Of a DNA stretch of 44,626 nucleotides, positions 2-20,498 are shown one piece after another. The notes under the pieces are model-generated. The model was not told the origin of the DNA. It saw only the letters and a program-made list of their open reading frames with translations, and did no database searches. Each line of letters opens with the position of its first letter. The stretch's first letter is position 1. The translations under genes and the position numbers were made by a program. This DNA comes from Candidatus Omnitrophota bacterium (GTDB lineage: Bacteria; Omnitrophota; Gorgyraeia; Zapsychrales; Fredricksoniimonadaceae), in NCBI GenBank assembly GCA_015233165.1, contig JADFYF010000009.1, positions 1 to 44,626 of the forward strand, given 5' to 3'.

Positions 2-364
2 TACACCAAAGTCATTGAGTCCTTAGAAGGTCAATTCCATCGCACCATCTTCCCAGGCGCTCATCGTATGCAGTCTGATGTCGAAACCATTCACAACCTT
101 ATGGAACTTGAATTCTTTGAACTCGAACAATTCCAAAATCGTTTAGACTTCTTCGCAAAAGCATCTTGTTATCAATTATTCTTCAATTTACATAGACCCA
201 ATTCTTACAAAGAACACAAAACCCCCTTGCAATTGGCTCATGAAAAGAACCAAAACCTTGATAAACGCTTACTGATGATTCCACCGGTTGACTTGGATCA
301 GTTATTCTCTTGGCAGGTTAATCTTTGGAAGAAAAGGGGTAACTATCAGTTGACCGTTCCCTGA
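2..364 (+). mobile_element. C-terminal part of an integrase-core (DDE) transposase, cut by window edge
   Basis: The frame is open from base 2, upstream of the ORF-track ATG at 68, so the real gene begins outside the window. The visible 120 residues run GQFHRTIFPGAH, then SDVETIHNLMELEFFE, then RPNSYKEHKTPLQLAHEK and PPVDLDQL. This pattern fits the end of an rve/DDE integrase domain followed by the short tail common in insertion-sequence transposases; the E of DVET may be the last catalytic acid. It is the only supported plus-strand gene, and its last 63 bases overlap the 3' end of the convergent exported-protein gene. No terminal inverted repeat is seen inside the window. The IS family cannot be assigned from the tail alone. 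A host integrase-like gene is less likely. Confidence 0.7.
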
Positions 365-3247
365 AAAAAACAAAAGTAGATCAGAGATGGGCTGAATATC
401 GATAACGATGGGCACTAAACCAGAGGCATTTCGAAGCATGGACAACTGGGCTGGATCTATCTTAAACTCAAAACCCTGACCACTGTTTTGAATTTGCAGG
501 GTTTTATCAGAAGTCAAATCAATACCTCCGTTTGTTATTTGCATCGCCTGATCCTTCAAGGAGGAATTCATAGCCGCATCAGTGATTGTTTTAAAAAGCA
601 TCCACCGATCTGGTGAAGGTGGCATACTGTTATAAACTCCAGAAAACATAAATTCCTTCTGAAAAGAATCTTTAACGTGTGAGTCCCATAAATTGTCTCC
701 ATTAAAAATAGAAAATATACTCCCCTCCTTCAATAATTGATCTAAATATTTCCAGGCCAGATTAACCTTATTCTTAAATATATTCAGATTTTCTTTGTCC
801 TGAGGAATCAAATATTGAATCACGTTATGCATTAACAACATATTGAACTGGGGGATTCCCTTATGCGTTGTTTCATCTAGAAAATTAAAATCATAAAAAC
901 TAATCATCTGATCTAATGTTGATGAGCGCTTATAATGTCCCTTTTCCTCAACAAAATATTCAGATAAATCCGCTTTAGGAAATTCTTTATCAACATGCGA
1001 CTCGATAATACTCGACGGATATATAATTTGATTATTCTTAACCTTCTTAAAAACATCCCCCTGTGGACTCATCACATGAATACGCACCTTAACGTACTTC
1101 TGAAGTCCCATCTTCTTTAACATTTGATCACAAAGAATCACCACGGAGATCGGCTCTTCCCCATAAGCGGCCCCTATAACACCCACATTAATAACCTGAG
1201 GAGGAATATCTTTTAACGGCTTCCCATTCACAAGACTCTTCACAATCAATGGAAACATTTTAGAAAAAAGAAATTCATAGGTGTACTCATACCTAAATAA
1301 TTGAGATGGCTCTTTAACATAGAAATTTCTTAAAAAACTATCATGACGAGCAGCTTCACGAAAACGAACATCTTGGGATAATAACTCCCAAACACCTTCT
1401 GTACTATCCTTTGCAAAAGACTTCTTTAATTCCTCCAATCTTGTCTCTATTTCCTGTTCAAATGAATATAAAACAATTTGAGATTGTTCATGCAAAAGAT
1501 TCTCAGGAAAGGTCTGTCCTTCACGAACAAAGTCCTCCCAAACCTGGACCTTATCGTCAAGAGAGAAGCTTTTCATCGCCCAGTCCTGCCTATCTGTCCC
1601 CAATAGCGGAGCCTCATTACTTCCATGCGCTCTTTGAATATTTATCCAATCAAAAATCAAATGACCTTTACCTTGATGCTTCTTCGTGTATATCTCATTG
1701 GCTAACTTTAAACACGCTGATAAAAGTTTGTCAGAATACTCCTGTCTGAATAAAAGATTAACTTCTCCACCCCAAATAATACTCAGGCGTTCTAATTCGG
1801 CATTTTCTATATTAATCTTTAATTGAATATCGATGGGTTTCCCTCCGACAGGAGTGACGTCGATATAATACTCTTCATAGGCTTTATCTTGATCTTGAAC
1901 CGTTCTTAGAAGAACCCCATGATCATCAATGGCTTGTTCTAAAGATCGACCTCCTTCGTTCGCCAATAATCGCAAGAAACGGCGATTTTCATCCTTGGTA
2001 TTCCAAAACGGCAAATCATCTAACATCGGATTATCTTCCCTTGTCGTCTGAGCAAAATCGACAGAAGCCTTCACTTGGACTAGCGAAACCGCATCTATCT
2101 TAGCCAGGACGGCAGAATTTTCGACTTCTTTAACAGAATAGATCAGCTGCGTTCCACCGGAGAAATATTTACGGGGAAAACTTTGACCTGAAACAGAATC
2201 CGGGGTTTCCTTAATATAGTTATAAACCCCCTTCTTAAAGGCCTGCAGGTATTGCTCGTAAATCTTCTGATTCTCCTTAGGATCCTTAATCCTTACGCCA
2301 TCCGTCTTATTCTGATCAGCATAGGCCGCCGACAAAATACTGTTCTTAATTTTCTTTTTATACCAAGAGGCTAAAAGAAAGGAATAGTAGACCTGACGCA
2401 GCTGAGCAAAGTTCTTGCCTTCGTTGACTTCGCGGGTGAGTTCGGGGATGACGATTTCGCGGATGATTTGGGAGCCTAGGATATGACTATTTATAGCCTT
2501 TTCCTGTAGCACTATGGTCTCACTATCTTTTTCGATGGGAATCCCCTGCGGGGATGTTCTGCCCTTGTTGTTCCTTTCAAGGGCAACATAATCCTCCTCC
2601 AACATCACCTTCAACCGCGCCTCCACCACATACGCCGCTCCCACCTTAGCATTTTCATAAATGACAGCCTTCTCGGGAACAATCCATACCTTATTAAACG
2701 TATTGACCGGAATATTTGTCGTCCCAAACTTCTTAGCCGCCTCCTCATAAACACGCTTCCAGAATTTCTTCCCCGTTTCCTCCTCGGGATAGATCAAAGA
2801 TGCTGTGATTTGCTTTAGAATATAATCCTGTGCCAGCAGGTCGCGGCCCATTTCGGTTTGGCCGAAGGATTCAGGGACAATTCTGTCTTTCTCGTAAGGT
2901 GACAGATTGACCCACATGTCTTTCTCGGGGGTGGTTAGGCTAGCTAGGAAATATTTGATTAATTTGGTAGATTCAGTTTTAAGGTAATCCTCCTTCGCCA
3001 AAATGCTTTCGCGTTTGGCTTCGGCGGACGTCCTGTCCCCTTGGTCCAGGACGAATTCAAACCGAAACGGATTATCCTTATGAACCTTAATCCCTTTAAG
3101 AATAGGAAGATTAAACTCAGGACTCAGATGCACCATCGTCCCTGGTTTAGGTAAAACAAGTTCCGCTTGCACCGTTGGTACAAGTCCAAAGCTATTGAAA
3201 AGGAAGGCTGTCAGGATCAATATATGGACAAATGGGGATTTCTTCAT
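302..3247 (-). CDS. Large exported protein with CheR-like methyltransferase domain (Omnitrophota-type)
   Basis: I start at the ATG giving MKKSPFVHILILTAFLFN, because this begins a clear Sec signal peptide ending near VQA-EL; the ORF-track start lies 12 codons upstream. The protein is 981 residues. Residues of about 30-400 hold a lineage-type module (GQTEMGRDLLAQDYILKQ, KIYEQYLQAFKKGVYNYIKE, PRKYFSGG) that I associate with many Omnitrophota proteins. Residues of about 640-850 resemble the SAM-binding domain of CheR methyltransferases: GAAYGEEPIS near 687 matches motif I and LMHNVIQYL near 805 matches the CRNVLIYF region. The last 60 residues carry a second recurring module (GGIDLT, LQIQNSGQGF, LVPIVIDIQP). 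A methyltransferase fold behind a signal peptide is unusual, and substrate and activity are unknown. The gene converges on the transposase fragment and is separated from the lipoprotein gene upstream. Confidence 0.75.
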   Translation of the reverse strand: MKKSPFVHILILTAFLFNSFGLVPTVQAELVLPKPGTMVHLSPEFNLPILKGIKVHKDNPFRFEFVLDQGDRTSAEAKRESILAKEDYLKTESTKLIKYFLASLTTPEKDMWVNLSPYEKDRIVPESFGQTEMGRDLLAQDYILKQITASLIYPEEETGKKFWKRVYEEAAKKFGTTNIPVNTFNKVWIVPEKAVIYENAKVGAAYVVEARLKVMLEEDYVALERNNKGRTSPQGIPIEKDSETIVLQEKAINSHILGSQIIREIVIPELTREVNEGKNFAQLRQVYYSFLLASWYKKKIKNSILSAAYADQNKTDGVRIKDPKENQKIYEQYLQAFKKGVYNYIKETPDSVSGQSFPRKYFSGGTQLIYSVKEVENSAVLAKIDAVSLVQVKASVDFAQTTREDNPMLDDLPFWNTKDENRRFLRLLANEGGRSLEQAIDDHGVLLRTVQDQDKAYEEYYIDVTPVGGKPIDIQLKINIENAELERLSIIWGGEVNLLFRQEYSDKLLSACLKLANEIYTKKHQGKGHLIFDWINIQRAHGSNEAPLLGTDRQDWAMKSFSLDDKVQVWEDFVREGQTFPENLLHEQSQIVLYSFEQEIETRLEELKKSFAKDSTEGVWELLSQDVRFREAARHDSFLRNFYVKEPSQLFRYEYTYEFLFSKMFPLIVKSLVNGKPLKDIPPQVINVGVIGAAYGEEPISVVILCDQMLKKMGLQKYVKVRIHVMSPQGDVFKKVKNNQIIYPSSIIESHVDKEFPKADLSEYFVEEKGHYKRSSTLDQMISFYDFNFLDETTHKGIPQFNMLLMHNVIQYLIPQDKENLNIFKNKVNLAWKYLDQLLKEGSIFSIFNGDNLWDSHVKDSFQKEFMFSGVYNSMPPSPDRWMLFKTITDAAMNSSLKDQAMQITNGGIDLTSDKTLQIQNSGQGFEFKIDPAQLSMLRNASGLVPIVIDIQPISDLLLFFSGNGQLIVTPFLPKINLPRE

Positions 3248-3314
3248 ATACCCTAAGTATGTAACAAAAATAGTGAAAAACAAGGGCTGGGCACAACTTT
3301 TAAGAAAGCGCTCA

Positions 3315-5856: not shown

Positions 5857-8454
5857 TCAATCTTTTAAACGTAAGGTTCTATTTTCTTTCTTGCCAAACC
5901 GCTTCCAATGCTCCTTGGCCTGCCGAATGGTCAGAATTCCATTGGCCTTAAGATCAGGATATCTTTCGATATACTCCATCCAGTCATAAGATTGCCCCAC
6001 TCTTCGCTGACTCAACATACCCATGACTTGTTTAAATTTTATATAAATAGACATAAACAATGATCCCGTCTCATTTCTAGATCTAAAATATTCAAGAACT
6101 CTATGTCTAAACCCCCTCTTCTGAGTCGTCCACTGCCAAATGCCGTCCTTGGTCTTCTTAATATCCTCAAAAGGGTCGAAATTAAAATCAAGCAGGATAT
6201 TCGCACGCTTGGCATACTCCCTATCTACGGGGGAACCATGCCATAAATGAAGAACAGTCCCTGAAGAATAATGCAGACTTCCTTGAACATGTTGATGAAC
6301 GTTTTCAAGCCATGTCTCAAGTTCCTGAGCCATCTTCAAAGGAATAGATTTCATAAAAGAAGCTAGGGTATAAAATCTAAACATCTTGATGTGTTCCAAA
6401 TTAAATCCGAAAGCCATATAACTATCACCTGAACCAAGAATTCCTAAATCAAAGAAACCTATTGAATCTAAAGTCTCTCGACGAGCTGCCCATGCAAATC
6501 CAGGATGATAGATTGGAACCTGATGGGAACTTTTATACTCACCTTTCCAATAATAGGCATAACTCATCACCCTCTGACCCTCTAACATTCCCAACTGTCT
6601 CTCCCCCTTTTTCAAGCGAACCGCCGCTGTAAATGGCTGCACAATCTTGTACTTCTCTAAAAGCTGCGCCGTTTCATTAACCCAGCCGTCATCTTGAAAA
6701 ATAAGATCCGCATCAAGCCATACCACCTTATCACAGCTTGACGGAAGATTCTTTAAGGCAATATTTAACAAAGCCTCCTTCTGCCACAACACATTCTCCA
6801 AAGAACCCCTGATCTGAATAAGTTTGTCTGCGTCTGTTTTGGAGAGTTGAAAAGGATGCGCCCCCAATACTAATTCAACAGTTAAGAGTTTTAACCCTTG
6901 TCGTTTTAAGGATTCCTGGAAAATATAATAATTCTCAACTTTATTCTTGAATCCTGAAGGATTAAAAAGGACGCTGATCCCCCAGATATCTCCAGGTAAG
7001 GCCTTAGGAAATGTTGAATCTTCTGAATTCTTTGTAAAAAACACTCTTTGCTCTTTAACCCCCCATTGAAATAAATGATTGAGAGCAAGAACCTTGGTAT
7101 TAATCCCAGCCTTCATCAGATCAGGGTAAGAAAGAACATATCTCTCCCAATCAAAAATTTGAGAGAACTTCTCTTTATCAGCATCTACAGATAAATTCAA
7201 AGGCCCCTGTAAAGAATTCTCAGATTCTAATCCATCCAACCGGCCTGAAACTTTCTTCATTAGACCAAAATAATGATTAAAAACATTTTTGATAAGAAAT
7301 CGCTTCGAATGCTCCTCTCTTCTTTCAAAAAAATAATTTCTGACGCTGTTCTTAAGCAATGACTTATCCGTCCTCCATTCCCAAATTCCCTGAGAATTTC
7401 TTTTGATATCTTGGGATAGGTCGAATTCTGAATCAATCAAGCCCTGATGCCGAAAATTGTATCCCCTGTCTATTAAATTTCCATGCCACAGATGAAAAAT
7501 TGTCCCTGAGCTATAGTGAACACTCCCCTGAACATCGTTAAATATTCCTTGGGCCCACGCCAAAGAATCCTGAATCAAGGGAACATAGCACTTACGCTCC
7601 TCTAAATAGACCGGATAATTATAAAAGGCGTAACTGATAGTACGATCTCCACCGCCAAGAATAAAACGATCATAAAAAAAATGCTTATCCAGAAGATCTC
7701 TGCGAGCAGCCCACACATAACCAATATTAAAAAATGGAAACGAAAGGCCATATTGAATAAAATTAGCCCAATAAGCAGCAAGACTCACCATCTTCTGCCC
7801 TTCCTGAAAACCAAAATCTAGATTTGAACAAATCGAATAAGCCGACAAATCCCTAAACCCCTCTGCCATCCTTACCGAATATTCAAAAGGCTGAACCACC
7901 TTGTAAGTCTCAAGAAGCTTCGAAGTCTCAGCCACCCAGATCTCATTCTGAAAAATAATATCAGAATCCACCCACACGACCTTATCACAACTTTTCGGCA
8001 AATTTTTTAAGGCAATATTCAGCAACGCCTCCTTCTGCCACAACACATTCTCCTGGCCACCCCTAATCTGAATCAGCGTGTCTGCATCTTCTGTATTAAG
8101 TTCAAAAGGCTGCCCATCAAAAGCCAACTCAACTGTCAAAAGCTTAAGACCCTGGGCCTTAGAAGATTGACGAAAGATTCTATAATTCTTAGCTTTGTTA
8201 GTATACCTTGCGGGATTAAAGAATGCCGTAATGCCCCATAATTCACCGGGCAATTCTTGAGGAAACCTTATAGCAGCCTGCTCTTTAAGAAAAAGTATCC
8301 GACCTTCATTGGAACCATAGCTGTCCCAATGTTCCCTCGCCTGTTTCGGAGTAAGTATCCCTTTATGTTTTAAATCAGGATACTTCTCAAGGTAAGCCTT
8401 CCCATCAAACCGATCGGCAAGGAATACTTTATGAGGAACAACTCTGTCTTCCAT
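5857..8454 (-). CDS. Tandem-duplicated glycosyltransferase-like protein with three YPDL modules
   Basis: The 865-residue protein is internally repeated. Two copies of a domain of about 320 residues (roughly 70-390 and 485-800) share LLTVEL, RGxxENVLWQKEALLNIALKNLP, SCDKVVW, VQGS(V/L)HYSSGT and HLWHG. Each holds a DxD motif in the form VVWVDSDIIF and VVWLDADLIF, the usual metal/nucleotide-sugar signature of GT-A glycosyltransferases. Three copies of a 40-residue module flank them, near 13-55, 427-468 and 822-862: (F/Y)D-x3-Y-x3-YPDL, a helix, then HW/HL and a Gly-x-x-E-x-R end. Similar YPDV/EGR modules accompany glycosyltransferases elsewhere. There is no signal peptide, so it is likely cytoplasmic. 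At nucleotide level a perfect 27-base repeat 1,254 bases apart shows the duplication is fairly recent or under conversion. The gene follows a strong terminator and is probably transcribed alone. Donor and acceptor are unknown. Confidence 0.72.
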   Translation of the reverse strand: MEDRVVPHKVFLADRFDGKAYLEKYPDLKHKGILTPKQAREHWDSYGSNEGRILFLKEQAAIRFPQELPGELWGITAFFNPARYTNKAKNYRIFRQSSKAQGLKLLTVELAFDGQPFELNTEDADTLIQIRGGQENVLWQKEALLNIALKNLPKSCDKVVWVDSDIIFQNEIWVAETSKLLETYKVVQPFEYSVRMAEGFRDLSAYSICSNLDFGFQEGQKMVSLAAYWANFIQYGLSFPFFNIGYVWAARRDLLDKHFFYDRFILGGGDRTISYAFYNYPVYLEERKCYVPLIQDSLAWAQGIFNDVQGSVHYSSGTIFHLWHGNLIDRGYNFRHQGLIDSEFDLSQDIKRNSQGIWEWRTDKSLLKNSVRNYFFERREEHSKRFLIKNVFNHYFGLMKKVSGRLDGLESENSLQGPLNLSVDADKEKFSQIFDWERYVLSYPDLMKAGINTKVLALNHLFQWGVKEQRVFFTKNSEDSTFPKALPGDIWGISVLFNPSGFKNKVENYYIFQESLKRQGLKLLTVELVLGAHPFQLSKTDADKLIQIRGSLENVLWQKEALLNIALKNLPSSCDKVVWLDADLIFQDDGWVNETAQLLEKYKIVQPFTAAVRLKKGERQLGMLEGQRVMSYAYYWKGEYKSSHQVPIYHPGFAWAARRETLDSIGFFDLGILGSGDSYMAFGFNLEHIKMFRFYTLASFMKSIPLKMAQELETWLENVHQHVQGSLHYSSGTVLHLWHGSPVDREYAKRANILLDFNFDPFEDIKKTKDGIWQWTTQKRGFRHRVLEYFRSRNETGSLFMSIYIKFKQVMGMLSQRRVGQSYDWMEYIERYPDLKANGILTIRQAKEHWKRFGKKENRTLRLKD

Positions 8455-8469
8455 AACAGTCTGCCTTAG

Positions 8470-8507
8470 AAATAAAAACCTCTCAGTGCTTTAGAAGCTC
8501 TAAGAGG
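8470..8507 (-). terminator. Rho-independent terminator after the aminotransferase gene
   Basis: Read on the minus strand, CCTCTTAG pairs with CTGAGAGG (one G-U pair) around a 13-base loop and is followed directly by TTTTTATTT. It lies 30-70 bases past the aminotransferase stop and before the glycosyltransferase start, so it should end the VF530/hydrolase/HAD/aminotransferase transcript. Confidence 0.8.
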
Positions 8508-8538
8508 CTTTTACTTTAACAATCTTTCTTGTCAAAAA

Positions 8539-9927
8539 CTACTTTAAACTCAGCCCCTGACGTAAGGCTTCATCAATCAAATCAACAGCCAAATCAATTT
8601 CCTGACGAGTAATGTATAAAGAGGGGGCTAAGGTGAATACATTTTTGTAATAGCCACCGACACCTAAAAGTAACCCTTTGGGTTTACCGCCACCGGCCGT
8701 TAATTGGCCTTCTAAACCGATATTGACAACCCTGTCTGTCAATTCACGATCCGGCGTACGTCCGTCCTTCTGACAAATTTCAATACGCATGGCCAGCCCT
8801 AAACCATCCACCTCGCCGATCTGAGGATATTTCTTCTGCAAGGTTTTTAGACGTTCCACAAAATACCTGCCCTTCTCAGGAACGCTGGTGGCGAAATCAG
8901 AGTCTTCAATCAAATCCATCACACCTAGCGCTGCAGCTGTCCCAATGGTGTTGGACGAATACGTCGAATGAGTTGACCCTGCCGGAAACACGTCTGGGTT
9001 AATCAATTCTTCCTTAGCCCAAACACCCGACAACGGATTAAGGCCGTTGGTGCAGGCCTTTCCAAAGACGATAATGTCGGGAACAACATCAAAATGCTCA
9101 ATCGCCCACATCTTACCTGTACGATAGAAGCCCATATGCACTTCATCCGAAACAAACAAAACCTGATGACGCTCAAGAAGCTTTTTTAATTCTTTGAAAT
9201 AGCCCTTAGGAGGAACAATGTATCCACCGGTGGCCTGAACAGGTTCCACAAAAAACCCGCCATATTCGCAATTCTTCGTCTTAGGATTGACGATAGAATA
9301 ATATTCCGATTCAAATAACTTTGAAAAATCCTTAAAACAGGTCAGATCACAGCACTCGGCATCACTTTTCCCTGAAGGACAACGGAAACGATACGGATAG
9401 GGAACAAAATAAGCTCTGTCTGAAAAATGACCGTAATTCTCGCGGTAACGGTAGCTGGAGGTAATCGATGTGGCTCCCAAGGTGCGACCATGATAGCCGC
9501 CTGTAAAAGCAAACATCGACTGCTTCTTGGTATGGTTGCGGACAATCTTAATCGCATCTTCAATCGCTGCCGCACCCCCGATATTAAAATGCACCCTTCC
9601 CTTAACTCCGAAGGTCTTCTCGACATTCAAGGCAATCTTCTCAGACAACAGAATCTTTTCTTCGTGAAGATACTGGCAGGACAACTGAGGCAGGACGTCA
9701 ATCTGTCCTTTAACAATATTGTTAAGTCGTTCATTCTTATAACCAAAATTAGCCACCGAATGCCACATCTGAAGATCGAGATAGGAGGTATTGTTGCGGT
9801 CAAAAACGAAACTGCCTTCACAACGATTAAAAATCTTAATTTCCTTCGCATAGTGGACGGTATCGCCCCATGAACAATACTTGGCTTCTTTTTCTAAAAG
9901 AATCTTATCTTGCGGATGCTGGCTCAT
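8539..9927 (-). CDS. Class-III PLP-dependent aminotransferase
   Basis: Fold-type I enzyme of the class-III aminotransferase family, which transfers an omega-amino group (as in 4-aminobutyrate, ornithine or diaminobutyrate) to a keto acid. The 462 residues show the family pattern: FAFTGGYHGRTLGAT for cofactor phosphate binding, EPVQATGGY, the cofactor-contacting Asp261 in SDEVHMGFYRTG, and Lys290 in FGKACTNGLNPLSG as the Schiff-base lysine. An unusual feature is a cysteine cluster (Cys183, 192, 193, 197 in RCPSGKSDAECCDLTC) in the loop before the large-domain strand, which could bind a metal or form disulfides. Its start lies 23 bases inside the HAD phosphatase gene, with AAGGGGAAGG as ribosome site, so the two are translationally coupled. 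The exact substrate is not readable. Confidence 0.88.
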   Translation of the reverse strand: MSQHPQDKILLEKEAKYCSWGDTVHYAKEIKIFNRCEGSFVFDRNNTSYLDLQMWHSVANFGYKNERLNNIVKGQIDVLPQLSCQYLHEEKILLSEKIALNVEKTFGVKGRVHFNIGGAAAIEDAIKIVRNHTKKQSMFAFTGGYHGRTLGATSITSSYRYRENYGHFSDRAYFVPYPYRFRCPSGKSDAECCDLTCFKDFSKLFESEYYSIVNPKTKNCEYGGFFVEPVQATGGYIVPPKGYFKELKKLLERHQVLFVSDEVHMGFYRTGKMWAIEHFDVVPDIIVFGKACTNGLNPLSGVWAKEELINPDVFPAGSTHSTYSSNTIGTAAALGVMDLIEDSDFATSVPEKGRYFVERLKTLQKKYPQIGEVDGLGLAMRIEICQKDGRTPDRELTDRVVNIGLEGQLTAGGGKPKGLLLGVGGYYKNVFTLAPSLYITRQEIDLAVDLIDEALRQGLSLK

Positions 9928-10597
9928 AAACCTTCCCCTTTAGATGCTTGTAAACATCGGCCAATGCCGTAAATTCAATGCAATCACGACCATGTTTATT
10001 GAGATATGCTAACAGTGTGTCCTTGGCAAAAACAATGTCAGATTCCATGGCGGCACAAATATCCGAACGGCCATCTCCGACGTAAAGAATAGGATGTTCA
10101 ATGGATCTATCATGAATAAAATGCGTCTTTTTGCAATGGGCGCAAAAGGGGCAATCCGGATTAGAATAAGGAAAGGATGGAATTAGCTCTTCCCCTTTAA
10201 ACTCCAGGTGATTCGCAAAAACAGGTAACCCTCGAATATTATTATTAGCAAAGATCTCTTGAATGATCGGTTCAAAGTTATCGCTTAAGATGACCGGAGT
10301 AACCCCCACCTTGCCCAATAATTCAATAATCTTCACAAAGTAAGCGTCAATCTCAACAGCCGCCAGATAACGGCTCAAGTCCTTCCTTGAGATCCTGACT
10401 TCCTTCATCTGCCCAATCAAACACTGCTTCGTTGTAATCTCTCCTAATTGCCAGGCTTTTTCTAACTTTATCCAGTCTTCACTCAGTGAATAGCATTCAA
10501 TAAGCTCGTAAAGAACATCCCCGACCGTAATTGTATTATCAAAATCAAAAAAAACACGGCAATCAGATAACCTATAATTAACCAATTCCTGCTCCAT
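9905..10597 (-). CDS. HAD-superfamily IB phosphatase (MtnX / phosphoserine-phosphatase-like)
   Basis: Soluble Mg-dependent phosphatase of the HAD superfamily. I use the ATG giving MEQELVNYRL, because the ORF-track start is a TTG with no good ribosome site. The 230 residues contain motif I FDFDNTIT (Asp18 and Asp20, nucleophile and acid/base), motif II LSDNFE, and motif IV VGDGRSDICAA. The stretch CPFCAHCKKTHF resembles MtnX-like members, which dephosphorylate an intermediate of methionine salvage; phosphoserine phosphatase is the other close relative. No other methionine-salvage gene is nearby, so the substrate is open. Overlap with the aminotransferase gene suggests the phosphatase and aminotransferase act on consecutive or paired intermediates. 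That is inference. Confidence 0.8.
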   Translation of the reverse strand: MEQELVNYRLSDCRVFFDFDNTITVGDVLYELIECYSLSEDWIKLEKAWQLGEITTKQCLIGQMKEVRISRKDLSRYLAAVEIDAYFVKIIELLGKVGVTPVILSDNFEPIIQEIFANNNIRGLPVFANHLEFKGEELIPSFPYSNPDCPFCAHCKKTHFIHDRSIEHPILYVGDGRSDICAAMESDIVFAKDTLLAYLNKHGRDCIEFTALADVYKHLKGKVYEPASAR

Positions 10598-10683
10598 TTT
10601 AAAAGCCCCTAACCTTCTATAAGGGTTCCACAAAAGGTTTAATTATAAAGTATTAAATTATTCTGTCCATCATTATTCGGGGG

Positions 10684-11574
10684 CTAATGAGAACTCAGGG
10701 AGGAAAAGAAACGATCTAACTCTGCAGCGACTTTTTCGCGCTCTTGGTCTGCCACAATGACATGGTAGGAGTCTTCCAAAAGGACAATCTCTTTAATTTT
10801 AGAGGCAATCGTATCACGAATGGCATACGCATTCTTGACACTGCTCATGTCATCCTCCCTCGCCTGAATAATCTGCAAAGGGCTTTGAATGAAAGGAATT
10901 CTTGTCTTGAGATACTTCACCAACAAATAATGCTGATAGAGAAGAGCGATAGGATAAAATGGATAGCCGTTTTTCGTCACATCCCCCATATCATTGACGG
11001 TTCTTTGATGATAATACGCGTGAATCCTCTCGCGTACGGCTTCATTCTTAACCCCATAGGGATGCTCTTCTTTAAAGAAAATATAGTATTTCAACGGCGT
11101 GTAAAAACCTAAGGGCAACAGATAACGCCACTTGGTAGCATTCCATCCATCAAAAAAAAGAATCGGAGACAAACAGCTAACTCCTTTGACTCTATCCTTA
11201 AATTCATCCGCCAACAATAACGCCAGCAAAGCCCCCACGGAAAGCCCGGAAACAAAAATCGATTGATCCCCCGCGGCTTCTCGCTCTAAGAAAACCTTGC
11301 GTACCGATGCGTAAAACTCCTGCCACTTGGCTTTTCTAAAAATATCCATTGGCTGGCCGTGCTTAGCCAAACGCGGACAGACCACTGTAAATCCCTTACG
11401 GTTTAAATAAATCGCCAAATAAGCTGTTTCCCTAGGAGAACCCGTTAACCCGTGAATGAGGATAATCGTTGAACCATTGGTTCCCTGATAAAACAAGTTT
11501 CCCGCCTTATCCAATGACTCTTCCGAAGGGGGGTTGATGGATCTATGTGTATTAAATGAAAAGTGAACCGACAT
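10684..11574 (-). CDS. Alpha/beta-hydrolase (carboxylesterase / monoglyceride-lipase-like)
   Basis: The 296-residue protein has the alpha/beta-hydrolase layout: IILIHGLTGSPRETAYL gives the oxyanion-hole HG, the nucleophile elbow is GLSVG (Ser112), QAREDDMSSV probably carries the acid, and His271 in DSYHVIV completes the triad. The HGLTGSP form and overall pattern resemble Est30-type carboxylesterases and monoacylglycerol lipases. There is no signal peptide, so it is likely cytoplasmic. It starts 8 bases after the VF530-like gene and has no clear Shine-Dalgarno of its own, suggesting coupling to that gene. About 85 bases separate it from the HAD gene downstream. Confidence 0.82.
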   Translation of the reverse strand: MSVHFSFNTHRSINPPSEESLDKAGNLFYQGTNGSTIILIHGLTGSPRETAYLAIYLNRKGFTVVCPRLAKHGQPMDIFRKAKWQEFYASVRKVFLEREAAGDQSIFVSGLSVGALLALLLADEFKDRVKGVSCLSPILFFDGWNATKWRYLLPLGFYTPLKYYIFFKEEHPYGVKNEAVRERIHAYYHQRTVNDMGDVTKNGYPFYPIALLYQHYLLVKYLKTRIPFIQSPLQIIQAREDDMSSVKNAYAIRDTIASKIKEIVLLEDSYHVIVADQEREKVAAELDRFFSSLSSH

Positions 11575-16138: not shown

Positions 16139-17374
16139 CTACTTTATATCCACCGTTTGAATTTCTTTCATGATCTTAGAATGCATGGACAGATAATCAT
16201 CATAAGAGAAAAACAAAATGCCCCCAGGGCTTAATTCTTTAGCTAAGCTATAGGTCAATGCAAATTCACGAGTATTCTTAAAAACAAAAACACCAAGTCC
16301 TACATAAATCTTCTGCCGATCTTCCTGATTAAGCCCCGCCTTGGTGATTTGATAAAACAAACGGCTGTCTCGGGTGTAGTTCATCAGGACCACGTAATCG
16401 ACCAGTTTCTTTTGAATCCATAATTCCCAATCCTGAAACGCAATGGAATACGCCCGTTCTATTCCAGCGACGACGGCACAGGATAGACGCCAGCTAGAAG
16501 CCTTCTCTCTCACCCTAGCTGAAATACGAGCCACCAGATCCGTCACCTGTTTCCTTTTCCAGGCATCCCATAATAAATACAAATCATGGTCATACACATC
16601 TTCCTTGGATGGGTCATGCCCAACTTCTGCCTTAAAACGACTTAAACTCTTTTCACCAAAACCATAACTGATCCCATAGTCGATAAAACGAGAATCAGGG
16701 ATATAAGGCACAGGATAAGGATAGCGGACATAATCCAAATGAAGACCACTCAAGGAAGGGTATCTCGCTATAATATCGTCGACGATATTTAAAATATAAT
16801 CTGAAACACGTTCATCACCAGGCTCTAAGAACAGTTGATCATCCCGTAGATAGAATTTATCGGAATCATTGCAGTCTTCTGTTTTGATAGAACTTCTTAA
16901 TTTCTTATCTCGAGTTAATACCGACTTGCCATATTTATTTAAAATCGGAGCATTCTTATTTTGAGCCAAACTCAAGACATTAACCCACGCGTACACCTTG
17001 ACTCCATTTCTCTTCGCCTCACTCAACAGAAAATCCACAGGATCCTGTCCCATGGTTTTAGTCATTCTTACATACTCATCCTTCTTAGACATCTTACTGT
17101 CATAGTAAGACTCTCCTGCGCGAAAAATCTGTAAATAAATCTCCTGAAGATGATTCTCCTTACAAAAAGCTAACAGCTTTAACACCGCTGCTTTAGAATA
17201 AAGAACCTTCTCCTTAGAAAAAACGGTGACCCATACCCCCTGAACAATGACCTTTTTCTCCTGCACCTTCTTAAGAATCAGCTTGGGAGGAACGGGTGGT
17301 TTTGGTTTAGGAGTTTCGTTACTGCAGGAAACCATCAAACTTAAAACAATCAGACAACCTAGTATTCTTCTCAT
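16139..17374 (-). CDS. Putative glycoside hydrolase-like lipoprotein (GHL10/DUF187 type)
   Basis: The protein begins MRRILGCLIVLSLMVSCS, a lipoprotein signal (lipobox VSCS), then a Pro-rich linker (PKPKPPVPPK). The remaining 365 residues resemble the TIM-barrel GHL10/DUF187 family: GVWVTVF at the start of the barrel, VKVYAWVNVLSL, then GLHLDYVRYPYP, whose Asp is the likely acidic active-site residue, and later VDYVVLMNYTRD. Related proteins are thought to act on cell-wall or surface polysaccharide but the substrate is not known. The first Met in the ORF track is a GTG one codon upstream; I prefer the ATG. It lies 43 bases downstream of usp. Confidence 0.8.
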   Translation of the reverse strand: MRRILGCLIVLSLMVSCSNETPKPKPPVPPKLILKKVQEKKVIVQGVWVTVFSKEKVLYSKAAVLKLLAFCKENHLQEIYLQIFRAGESYYDSKMSKKDEYVRMTKTMGQDPVDFLLSEAKRNGVKVYAWVNVLSLAQNKNAPILNKYGKSVLTRDKKLRSSIKTEDCNDSDKFYLRDDQLFLEPGDERVSDYILNIVDDIIARYPSLSGLHLDYVRYPYPVPYIPDSRFIDYGISYGFGEKSLSRFKAEVGHDPSKEDVYDHDLYLLWDAWKRKQVTDLVARISARVREKASSWRLSCAVVAGIERAYSIAFQDWELWIQKKLVDYVVLMNYTRDSRLFYQITKAGLNQEDRQKIYVGLGVFVFKNTREFALTYSLAKELSPGGILFFSYDDYLSMHSKIMKEIQTVDIK

Positions 17375-17417
17375 CACTTCTTTGAACCCCTCTATCCGTC
17401 CATTCTATTGAAATTAT

Positions 17418-17849
17418 TTAGCCTTCTAGCGATCGAATCATAAGAATAGGAATGTCGGTGTTATGACGTAAATCATCGGCAACGCTTCCTAAAATCATAT
17501 CTTTAACAAAACCATGCCCATGCGTAGCCATAGCAATCAAATCGCAACCCTCTTGGGCAGCGACGGTCAATATCGCCTTGCCTGGCTCCTTACCTTGAAC
17601 TAAAAGCGCTTTAACATCAAAACCTTCGGTCTTTAAATCTTGACATGTCTCTTCTAAATACTTCTGATCCTTGGTCATTTCCTCTGAATCCGCCAGATTA
17701 AGCTCATTTTGCAAGCGGGCTCCAAACCCATCAGCCACATGAATCAACACGATCTCTGAGTGGGTTAGCCTCACCAGAGGACGGATGTGATCTAAAATCG
17801 CCTTGTCCGTCGATGAATTATCTAAAGGTATCAATATTTTCTTATACAT
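17418..17849 (-). CDS. Universal stress protein (UspA family)
   Basis: 143 residues of one Usp domain: MYKKILIPLDNSSTDKAIL at the start and the nucleotide-binding pattern ATHGHG-x9-GSVADDLRHN-x4-P(I/V)L at the end, so it probably binds ATP. Usp proteins help cells under growth arrest and stress; some partner with transporters. It starts just after the mntH stop, with the ribosome site GGGGGG in the last mntH codons. This suggests co-production with the manganese/iron transporter. Confidence 0.93.
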   Translation of the reverse strand: MYKKILIPLDNSSTDKAILDHIRPLVRLTHSEIVLIHVADGFGARLQNELNLADSEEMTKDQKYLEETCQDLKTEGFDVKALLVQGKEPGKAILTVAAQEGCDLIAMATHGHGFVKDMILGSVADDLRHNTDIPILMIRSLEG

Positions 17850-17850
17850 A

Positions 17851-19182
17851 TCATCCCCCCCACCATGAATGAACCGTTTGAATAAGTAAATACACGTTGA
17901 ATCCGCCGATCATCACCGTGATCACCCAGGCCAATATCTTAAGCCAAAGGGGATTAACAAATGTCTGCATCTTAAGCTTATCGGAAGTAAACACGACCAG
18001 TGGAACAACCGCAAAACTTAACTGCAAAGATAACACCACCTGACTTAAGACTAAAAGACTTCCCACTCCTTTTTCGCCATACATCGCCGCTATGATCACG
18101 GCGGGGACAATGGCAATCAAACGCGTTAAGAGTCGACGTATCCACGGACGTAAACGAATATCCAAAAAACCTTCCATGACAATCTGTCCTGCCAAGGTCC
18201 CTGTTAATGTCGAATTCTGACCTGAAGCCAAAAGGGCCACAGCAAATAAGGTGCTTGCCACAGTCGCCCCTAACACGGGTGTCAAAAGCTTATACGCATC
18301 CCCAATATCCGCCACATTCTCATGCCTTCCTCCGTGAAAAGCGGCAGCGCTTAAGACTAAAATAGCCGCATTAATAAAAAAGGCGCACAGTAATGCTGCG
18401 GTTGAGTCGATCGTGGCAAAACGAATGGCCATTGCTTTTCCGGTATCATTACGTTCATAGGCACGGGTCTGCACGATACTGGAATGCAAATACAAATTAT
18501 GCGGCATCACCGTCGCCCCCAAAATACCAATCGCGATATAAAGCATCTGAGGATTCGTCACAATTTCAGGTTTGGGAATTAATCCATTAAACACCGCCGG
18601 CCACAATGGATGAGCAATGATCATTTCATAACCAAAGCATCCTCCTATCAAAACAATGAGACCTGCCACCAGGCATTCTAAAAGACGAAAGCCTTTATTC
18701 TGCAAGAATAAAAGAAGAATCACATCCAACGCCGTGATGAGAATACCGACGACTAAAGGAATAGCAAAAAGCAAATTCAACGCGATCGCAGAACCAATGA
18801 TCTCAGCTAAATCACAAGCCGCAATCGCAATCTCACACAGCACCCATAAAAATATCGCTACAGGTTTAGAATAATGATCTCGGCAGGCCTGAGCCAAATC
18901 ACGTCCGGTCGCAATCCCCAACTTCAGGGCCAAATGCTGAAGGATTATTGCTATAAAATTAGAAATCAAGACTACCGACAACAGCGTATAGCCAAATTGA
19001 GCGCCGCCAGCCAAATCCGTGGCCCAATTCCCCGGATCCATGTAACCAACCGCCACCAGAAGACCTGGCCCCACAAAGGCCATCATCTTGCGCCAGAATT
19101 TCGCCGTGACAGGAACGCTGATCGAGGCATTGACTTCCTGTAAACTGACAACCGTGACATCACGTTGCCATGGTTTTTTCAT
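17851..19182 (-). CDS. mntH: Nramp-family divalent metal transporter (MntH)
   Basis: Proton-coupled importer of Mn(II) and Fe(II) in the inner membrane. 443 residues with about 11 hydrophobic segments. The two metal-binding motifs of the family are intact: [12 protein letters not shown] in TM1 (Asp49, Asn52) and [13 protein letters not shown] in TM6. The gene start overlaps the stop of the CNNM/CorC-type gene (ATGTATGA) and its own stop abuts usp, so three genes are translationally linked. No manganese riboswitch or MntR site is apparent because there is no upstream gap. Confidence 0.95.
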
Positions 19183-20498
19183 ACATTCTCCTTCAGATGA
19201 ACAGCCGCTTCGCCTAATTTCTTTCGACGGAGCCTTCTGGCTGTAATCTGAACTCCATTCACTTCAAGACAATCCCCTGCCTTTAAAGGAGCTTTACTAT
19301 TCTTAGCAAACCAATCCGCCAATTTTACCTTTTCCTCTTCCGGTGACAGTAAAGGCCAGACCTTTCCCACAGTCGAAGCCAGCGTCGACATTGTGACACC
19401 ACCTCCCAAAAGCCATCCATCTCCATAAGGATGCACATACGAAGGCACGCGGTCATACTCATCTTCGATTTCACCGACCAACTCTTCAATAATATCCTCT
19501 AGGGTCACCATTCCAATCATTCTTTCTTGAACAGCAACCATCATAATGTGCAGCTTCTCTGTAATCATCTGCTCTAACACCAAGGAAATAGAAACATTAG
19601 CCTGCACGGTCTTGATTGGTCTAAGAATACCTTTCACCGAAGGATCGTTAGGATTTATTTTCAAAGCAGCGACAATATCCTTAAAATTCACATACCCGAT
19701 GATACGTTGCGGATTATCTTCTTGTTCAGAGACAGGAAAACGGGTATGCATATCATTATGCGCCCGAATCAAAGCTTCAGACAATTTAGCATTTAAGGGA
19801 ATCATCGAAATATCTTCAACAGGTAGAATAATTTCTTTAATCATTCGTCGAGATAATTGAGCGGCGGATAATACAATTCTCTCCTCGTGAACACCCAATA
19901 AGCGAGAAGTGCGGGCTAATGAGACCGCGGCATTCAGTTCATGCAATCCCGTATTGTCCTCGATAGAATCCTTGATCCTCTGATGCCGGTCAATAAATTC
20001 CATCACCTGCTTCACAATTTTTTCTAAAATACTAATCACAGGATACGCCAGCCAGGCGAGCACCTTCATCAGCGGAGATAAAGCAAGACACACCATGACC
20101 TGATGCTTAATCGCATACGTCTTAGGCACCAATTCAGCAAAAACGATGGTGATGGCGCTTAATGGAATAATCAGAAATATCAAAGAAAGAATATGAGAGA
20201 CGGAGCTAGATACGCCCCAGCGCGCTGATAAAATGGGAGATAAATATCCATCCACCCCAGCGCCTCCAATAGCAGCCGCAATAGCGCCCATCAAGGTCAC
20301 AGACACCTGAACCACCGCCAAGGACCTTTCCATACGGTCCTTCATATACAGAGCTTCGACGGCTCCCGCCTTCTTCATATTCACTAATGCCGTAAGCTTC
20401 ACTCTAGAGATAGAAGCCAAGGCCATTTCATAAGCAGCAAAGATGGCTGTCACAGCCAACATGATAGAAATTGTAACCAATTCAAAACTCAGCCCCAT
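19179..20498 (-). CDS. CNNM/CorC-type membrane protein (DUF21, CBS pair, CorC_HlyC)
   Basis: Residues of about 1-190 form the DUF21 membrane domain (ITISIML-like [32 protein letters not shown]), about 200-330 a CBS pair ([48 protein letters not shown]), and the last 80 residues a CorC_HlyC domain. Such proteins are linked to Mg2+ (or Co2+) efflux and are often misnamed hemolysins. The ORF-track first Met is a GTG overlapping GGAG; I prefer the ATG four codons in (439 residues). The overlap with mntH suggests a metal-homeostasis unit. Confidence 0.9.

Follow-up and report, generated by a model that had tools for sequence, protein, structure and literature searches.

An uncultured Omnitrophota bacterium encodes an 865-residue protein that we consider fairly likely, from its sequence and structural models, to be a soluble, probably metal-dependent GT-A enzyme, in which two working glycosyltransferase (GT) domains would make sequential transfers and three short modules would serve as spacers or docking units. 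Judged by analogy, two sequential transfers appear to be the best-supported mechanism for this protein, and the alternating or two-step glycan synthesis raised in a preliminary description of this DNA is plausible. The gene lies in a stretch of 44,626 nucleotides (the window), which is one whole contig (G000:C187) of a genome that is 78% complete.

Layout of the protein and its modules

The open reading frame is intact from an ATG start on the minus strand, and its parts alternate along the chain as follows.

5857–8454, minus strand: gene for the two-GT modular protein, 865 aa; open reading frame with ATG start, hairpin upstream, no hydrophobic segment of membrane-span length
8281–8412, minus strand: module 1, YPDL...HW...G-x-x-E-x-R, aa 15-55; module HMM E 1.3e-22
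7267–8268, minus strand: GT-A domain 1 (GT1); family profile 4.7e-159, AF2 GT-A fold, 37/38 conserved positions
7960–7968, minus strand: DxD motif of GT1 (DSD, aa 163-165); both Asp unchanged throughout the 54-row alignment
7480–7494, minus strand: HLWHG motif of GT1 (aa 321-325); its second His is the same in all 54 rows
7027–7158, minus strand: module 2, aa 433-473; module HMM E 1.2e-22, AF2 helices (aa 431-865 model)
6031–7014, minus strand: GT-A domain 2 (GT2); family profile 2.1e-146, AF2 model with GT-A matches in the PDB, 38/38 conserved positions
6706–6714, minus strand: DxD motif of GT2 (DAD, aa 581-583); conserved positions of the alignment (54 rows)
6235–6249, minus strand: HLWHG motif of GT2 (aa 736-740); conserved positions of the alignment (54 rows)
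5860–5991, minus strand: module 3 (C-terminal), aa 822-862; module HMM E 1.8e-23, AF2 helical with final residues of low confidence
8027–8053, minus strand: 27-base exact repeat, GT1 copy; identical to 6773–6799
6773–6799, minus strand: 27-base exact repeat, GT2 copy; identical to 8027–8053
8466–8516, minus strand: terminator-like hairpin between the upstream aminotransferase gene and the two-GT gene; fold energy and U-rich 3′ arm

The preliminary description had proposed the order module-GT-module-GT-module, with a separate DxD motif (DSD, then DAD) in each GT domain. This is borne out by HMM searches with module and GT-family models, by the reading of the open reading frame and by the conserved residues. 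The three modules match at E-values from 1e-21 down to 1.8e-23 with an HMM built from nine rows, three of which are the protein's own copies, and GT1 and GT2 both match at E<1e-140 a family profile that includes them among its rows. The exact five-part layout is also as unfamiliar as had been supposed, since it was found only in this protein among the sequences searched. The arrangement recombines known parts, as two-GT chains and the module both occur elsewhere. A membrane anchor was considered and rejected because no segment is sufficiently hydrophobic.

The module, of about 40 residues, fits the D, Y, L, H, G, E, R pattern of the YPDL/YPDV repeat and is, as sequence matches and models indicate, a widespread helical repeat. 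AF2 places short helices at aa 18-24, 27-30 and 36-47 of module 1. A Pfam search of the modules returned no credible family, and a literature search for a YPDV repeat with a glycosyltransferase found nothing. Within the Omnitrophota, three modules occur with GT2-family and GT-B-like domains and at least four (one part masked) with GT2-family and GT-B domains (both G016), while another genome (G072) carries a GT92-like domain, two modules and a TOD1/MUCI70 domain in one protein and a single module beside GT-B domains in another. It seems that Omnitrophota freely combine GT domains with YPDL modules in long chains. The spread beyond this phylum rests on the plasmid search, in which iterated HMM searching recovered the same repeat in plasmid-encoded proteins of Alphaproteobacteria. 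Iterated HMMs also recovered it in a protein with a PKD domain. In L087 (G223:C56, same order) a PKD domain follows YPDL-type modules, and the module is therefore not restricted to glycosyltransferases. The FDxxYY...YPDV...G...HY...G..EGR repeats of Azospirillum and Bradyrhizobium proteins and of Omnitrophota GTs are, by iterated HMM search, the same repeat (L105, L106, L016, L084, L087, L090). In those proteins the copies mostly follow one another in tandem and are joined to GH99-like, PKD or other GT domains, whereas the 865-aa protein has single copies between and flanking its two GTs. If the modules position domains, this protein would lend itself naturally to testing whether a single chain can carry out multi-step glycan synthesis.

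Predicted folds, active sites and mechanism

We modelled the two halves of the protein separately with AF2, using an alignment of 54 sequences. Confidence is high in both models (aa 1-430, mean pLDDT 87.5; aa 431-865, mean pLDDT 88.0), and the GT-A fold expected of each half is predicted for both and supported by Foldseek and VIA-align matches. For the GT1 half, the best VIA-align match among the structures listed is a Leptospira glycosyltransferase (Z 15.0 over 176 residues), tied or nearly tied with K4CP (Z 14.6 and 14.2) and PmHS2 (Z 14.0), and the CgT structure 5hea is also a fold match (Z 13.1). The Foldseek matches of the GT2 half are the GT-A enzymes CHSY3-CHPF1, WrtF and GlfT2. The presence of the chondroitin polymerase K4CP, the heparosan synthase PmHS2 and CHSY3-CHPF1 among the best fold matches speaks for a two-site reading.

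A closer look at the active sites, which the preliminary description had proposed to compare, shows that in the models neither half lacks its DxD-bearing strand, which spans residues 156-162 of GT1 and, in the numbering of the GT2 model, 144-150. Hallmark positions were taken as the 38 that are conserved in at least 90% of the 54 aligned rows. Of these, 37 are retained in GT1 and all 38 in GT2, DxD, GxxD and HLWHG included, and the residues kept include both DxD aspartates, Arg 251/658 and His 324/739. Paired GT domains with one inactive partner are known in general, and by that precedent only one domain might be catalytic, with the other now structural or acceptor-binding, but the conservation just described argues against such a loss in either domain and makes it very unlikely. 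Because both halves are confident GT-A folds with their hallmark residues kept, both active sites are probably working, and with two intact predicted sites the simplest reading is two transfers per chain.

In each domain the DxD motif would hold a divalent metal and the nucleotide-sugar. The N-terminal part of GT-A enzymes binds the donor and the C-terminal part binds the acceptor. In the 865-aa protein, the conserved N-terminal half (67% identity between the copies) would accordingly be the predicted donor side and the divergent C-terminal half (39%) would meet the acceptor, a contrast suggesting that the two sites are alike on the donor side and differ on the acceptor side. The two sites may add sugars to different acceptors, with the product of one site feeding the next. 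The modules would have no catalytic role and would hold both GT domains, as helical spacers or docking units. The asymmetry between the parts is typical of the whole family, in which N-part minus C-part identity has a mean of 0.18 and the GT1-GT2 value of 0.29 sits at the 91st percentile, and by itself it is therefore no proof of different acceptors.

The two domains might instead make the same transfer, using the same donor and acceptor type, so that duplication raises avidity or processivity and yields no two-step product. GT1 and GT2 are indeed sister copies with closely similar N-parts, and all hallmark residues are common to both, but their C-parts are long-branched as well as divergent and have inserts of different lengths, features which are yet family-typical. 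On this evidence we regard a shared transfer as unlikely. We find it distinctly unlikely that the protein is a two-site synthase alternating transfers by anciently duplicated, uncharacterised GT-A domains, with YPDL modules as the scaffold of Omnitrophota "assembly line" proteins built from unrelated GTs. Counted against the favoured reading of two sequential transfers are the position of the gene outside any glycan cluster and the single GT copy in most family members found.

No Pfam model reaches its threshold with the GT family, and sequence comparison gives the family no relative of solved structure. The 865-aa protein scores 24.2 bits with Glyco_transf_8 (PF01501, CAZy GT8), just under the gathering score of 24.3, over a best stretch of 43 of the 253 profile positions that only leads up to the DxD, and the score is weaker with single domains; with Glycos_transf_2 (PF00535, CAZy GT2) it scores 16.4 bits against a gathering score of 23.3. 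A PDB sequence search with the protein gave no match up to E 10, and a search with the family profile gave no GT up to E 1, so that PDB sequence searches recovered no relation to K4CP or PmHS2. The sole PDB match of the profile, Borealin (E 0.46-0.67), was taken as chance, as were weak PHROGs and NCBIfam matches of the protein.

Age of the duplication and spread of the GT family

The two halves share a perfect 27-base repeat, as first noticed in the preliminary description, and blastn aligns 383 nt of them with 71% identity (E 1e-48), far above chance. From the repeat, a recent duplication or gene conversion had been proposed, which would leave the halves still near-copies. This is not upheld by the trees or by the codons. 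GT1 and GT2 are sisters in a tree of 69 domains (support 95/94), with long tips of 0.61 and 0.67, and they are also sisters in the N-part tree (96/72) and the C-part tree (96/91); a chimeric origin was rejected, as both split trees pair them. Their amino acid identity is about 50% overall, the N-part of GT1 shares 68-69% identity with proteins from other organisms, on a par with the 67% it shares with GT2, and where the aligned residues are identical only 19 of 56 four-fold sites match. An assembly duplication, an alternative that the preliminary description had raised, was checked and is ruled out by the same amino acid divergence.

The 27-mer encodes ENVLWQKEA, the most conserved motif of the GT family. 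Between GT1 and GT2, codons are identical at 85 of the 166 synonymous sites with identical residues, and for the longest run, nine identical synonymous codons at the 27-mer, permuting within degeneracy classes gives P=0.135. Some excess is seen around it: the best 36-site window, the widest tested, gives P=0.02, uncorrected for the four window sizes, and codons 119-165, a region picked post hoc, have 25 of 36 identical synonymous codons compared to 15.3 expected from codon usage (P=0.0007) and to about a third to a half elsewhere. Other pairs reach 65%. The excess would be at most a short, old conversion tract. By these sequence measures the duplication that gave GT1 and GT2 is old, and a recent event is highly improbable.

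Pattern scans for the GT family found 41 cellular and 24 viral loci, and members occur in bacteria, DPANN archaea and phages. Given this spread, one characterised member would annotate many genes. Within the Omnitrophota phylum both the family and the module are sporadic, as the GT is in 4 and the module in 6 of 193 genomes, the window's own genome counted in each. Two GT copies per chain are also found in L020, in L028 and on contig C143 of the same genome. The L028 pair are sisters (support 100/99), which makes their duplication separate from that of the 865-aa protein, while in L020 and C143 the two copies do not group as sisters and therefore look like fusions. On these trees, two-copy chains would have arisen at least four times, the 865-aa protein counted. 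Separate GT copies also occur within one neighbourhood in G026 and L052, and G026:C217 and PEAR01000030.1 carry the same two GT ORFs.

The closest comparison within the genome is with the paralogues C55a and C143, of the same GT family and 42-49% identical to the domains of the 865-aa protein. C143 (2393 aa) likewise has two family GTs in one chain, but both paralogues lack YPDL modules, and the C143 copies are not sisters and have a GT4 between them. The C143 protein (G000:C143, L013 3396-10577) runs GT2_4, NodZ-like, family GT, GT4, family GT and a long coiled-coil-like C-terminal region, and an MBOAT-like gene comes after it. In L014 (G000:C55), about the first 700 residues of a 1146-aa ORF recur in another ORF about 6 kb away (8483-10600 and 16371-19811), apparently a truncated repeat or misassembly. 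There the family GT in the longer ORF is cut short at the start of an MreB-like ORF that lacks the usual N-terminus.

Genome context and closest known systems

The two-GT gene is flanked by a sulfate permease gene and, upstream, by an operon of aminotransferase, HAD-IB phosphatase and alpha/beta hydrolase (window 8539-11574), which keeps the same order in four other genomes of the taxonomic family. No glycan cluster surrounds the gene among the ORFs scanned in the window. Because the aminotransferase set is kept without the GT gene in these genomes (G001, G005, G012 and G015), the two-GT gene was probably inserted at this locus or lost from the others. GC over the gene is slightly lower (0.39-0.42, compared to 0.42-0.45 around it). 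As the upstream hairpin (-23.5 kcal/mol, z -5.3), with its U-rich arm, separates the gene from the aminotransferase set, the two are probably transcribed apart. Elsewhere in the window, the protein at positions 302-3283 has an N-terminal region in common with that of L014 3560-7780 (LPKPG..VHLSPEFN.PILKGIKVH.DNPF.F.F.LD.GD); one of the two proteins continues into a CheR-like methyltransferase and the other into kinase-like domains (by eye).

Among known systems, K4CP (KfoC) and PmHS2 have two sites and two GT-A domains per chain. They resemble the 865-aa protein in having two intact GT-A sites, which in the latter are read from predicted folds and conserved residues, and their identity to it is 11-15% within the aligned part. 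The E. coli K4 enzyme KfoC has two functions and builds a polymer of a repeating disaccharide (PMC7764085). The gene described here, in contrast, is not in a capsule locus. The chlorovirus PBCV-1 protein A111/114R likewise joins several GT domains in one chain, with three transferase domains and functions in 860 aa, which have been proposed to attach the sugars of a single glycan one after another (PMC7826918). These domains belong to different GT types (GalT, XylT and a GT-B-like FucT), whereas the 865-aa protein has sister copies of one family, plus modules. In dGT1 of Streptococcus parasanguinis, GT-D and GT-A domains act in sequence and a three-helix binding domain lies beside the GT-A (PMC5063993). 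Both proteins have two GT domains and a helical part, the latter predicted in the 865-aa protein, but the two GT domains of dGT1 differ in fold. Two-site sugar transferases and the YPDL module are both already known; their combination in one protein is new.
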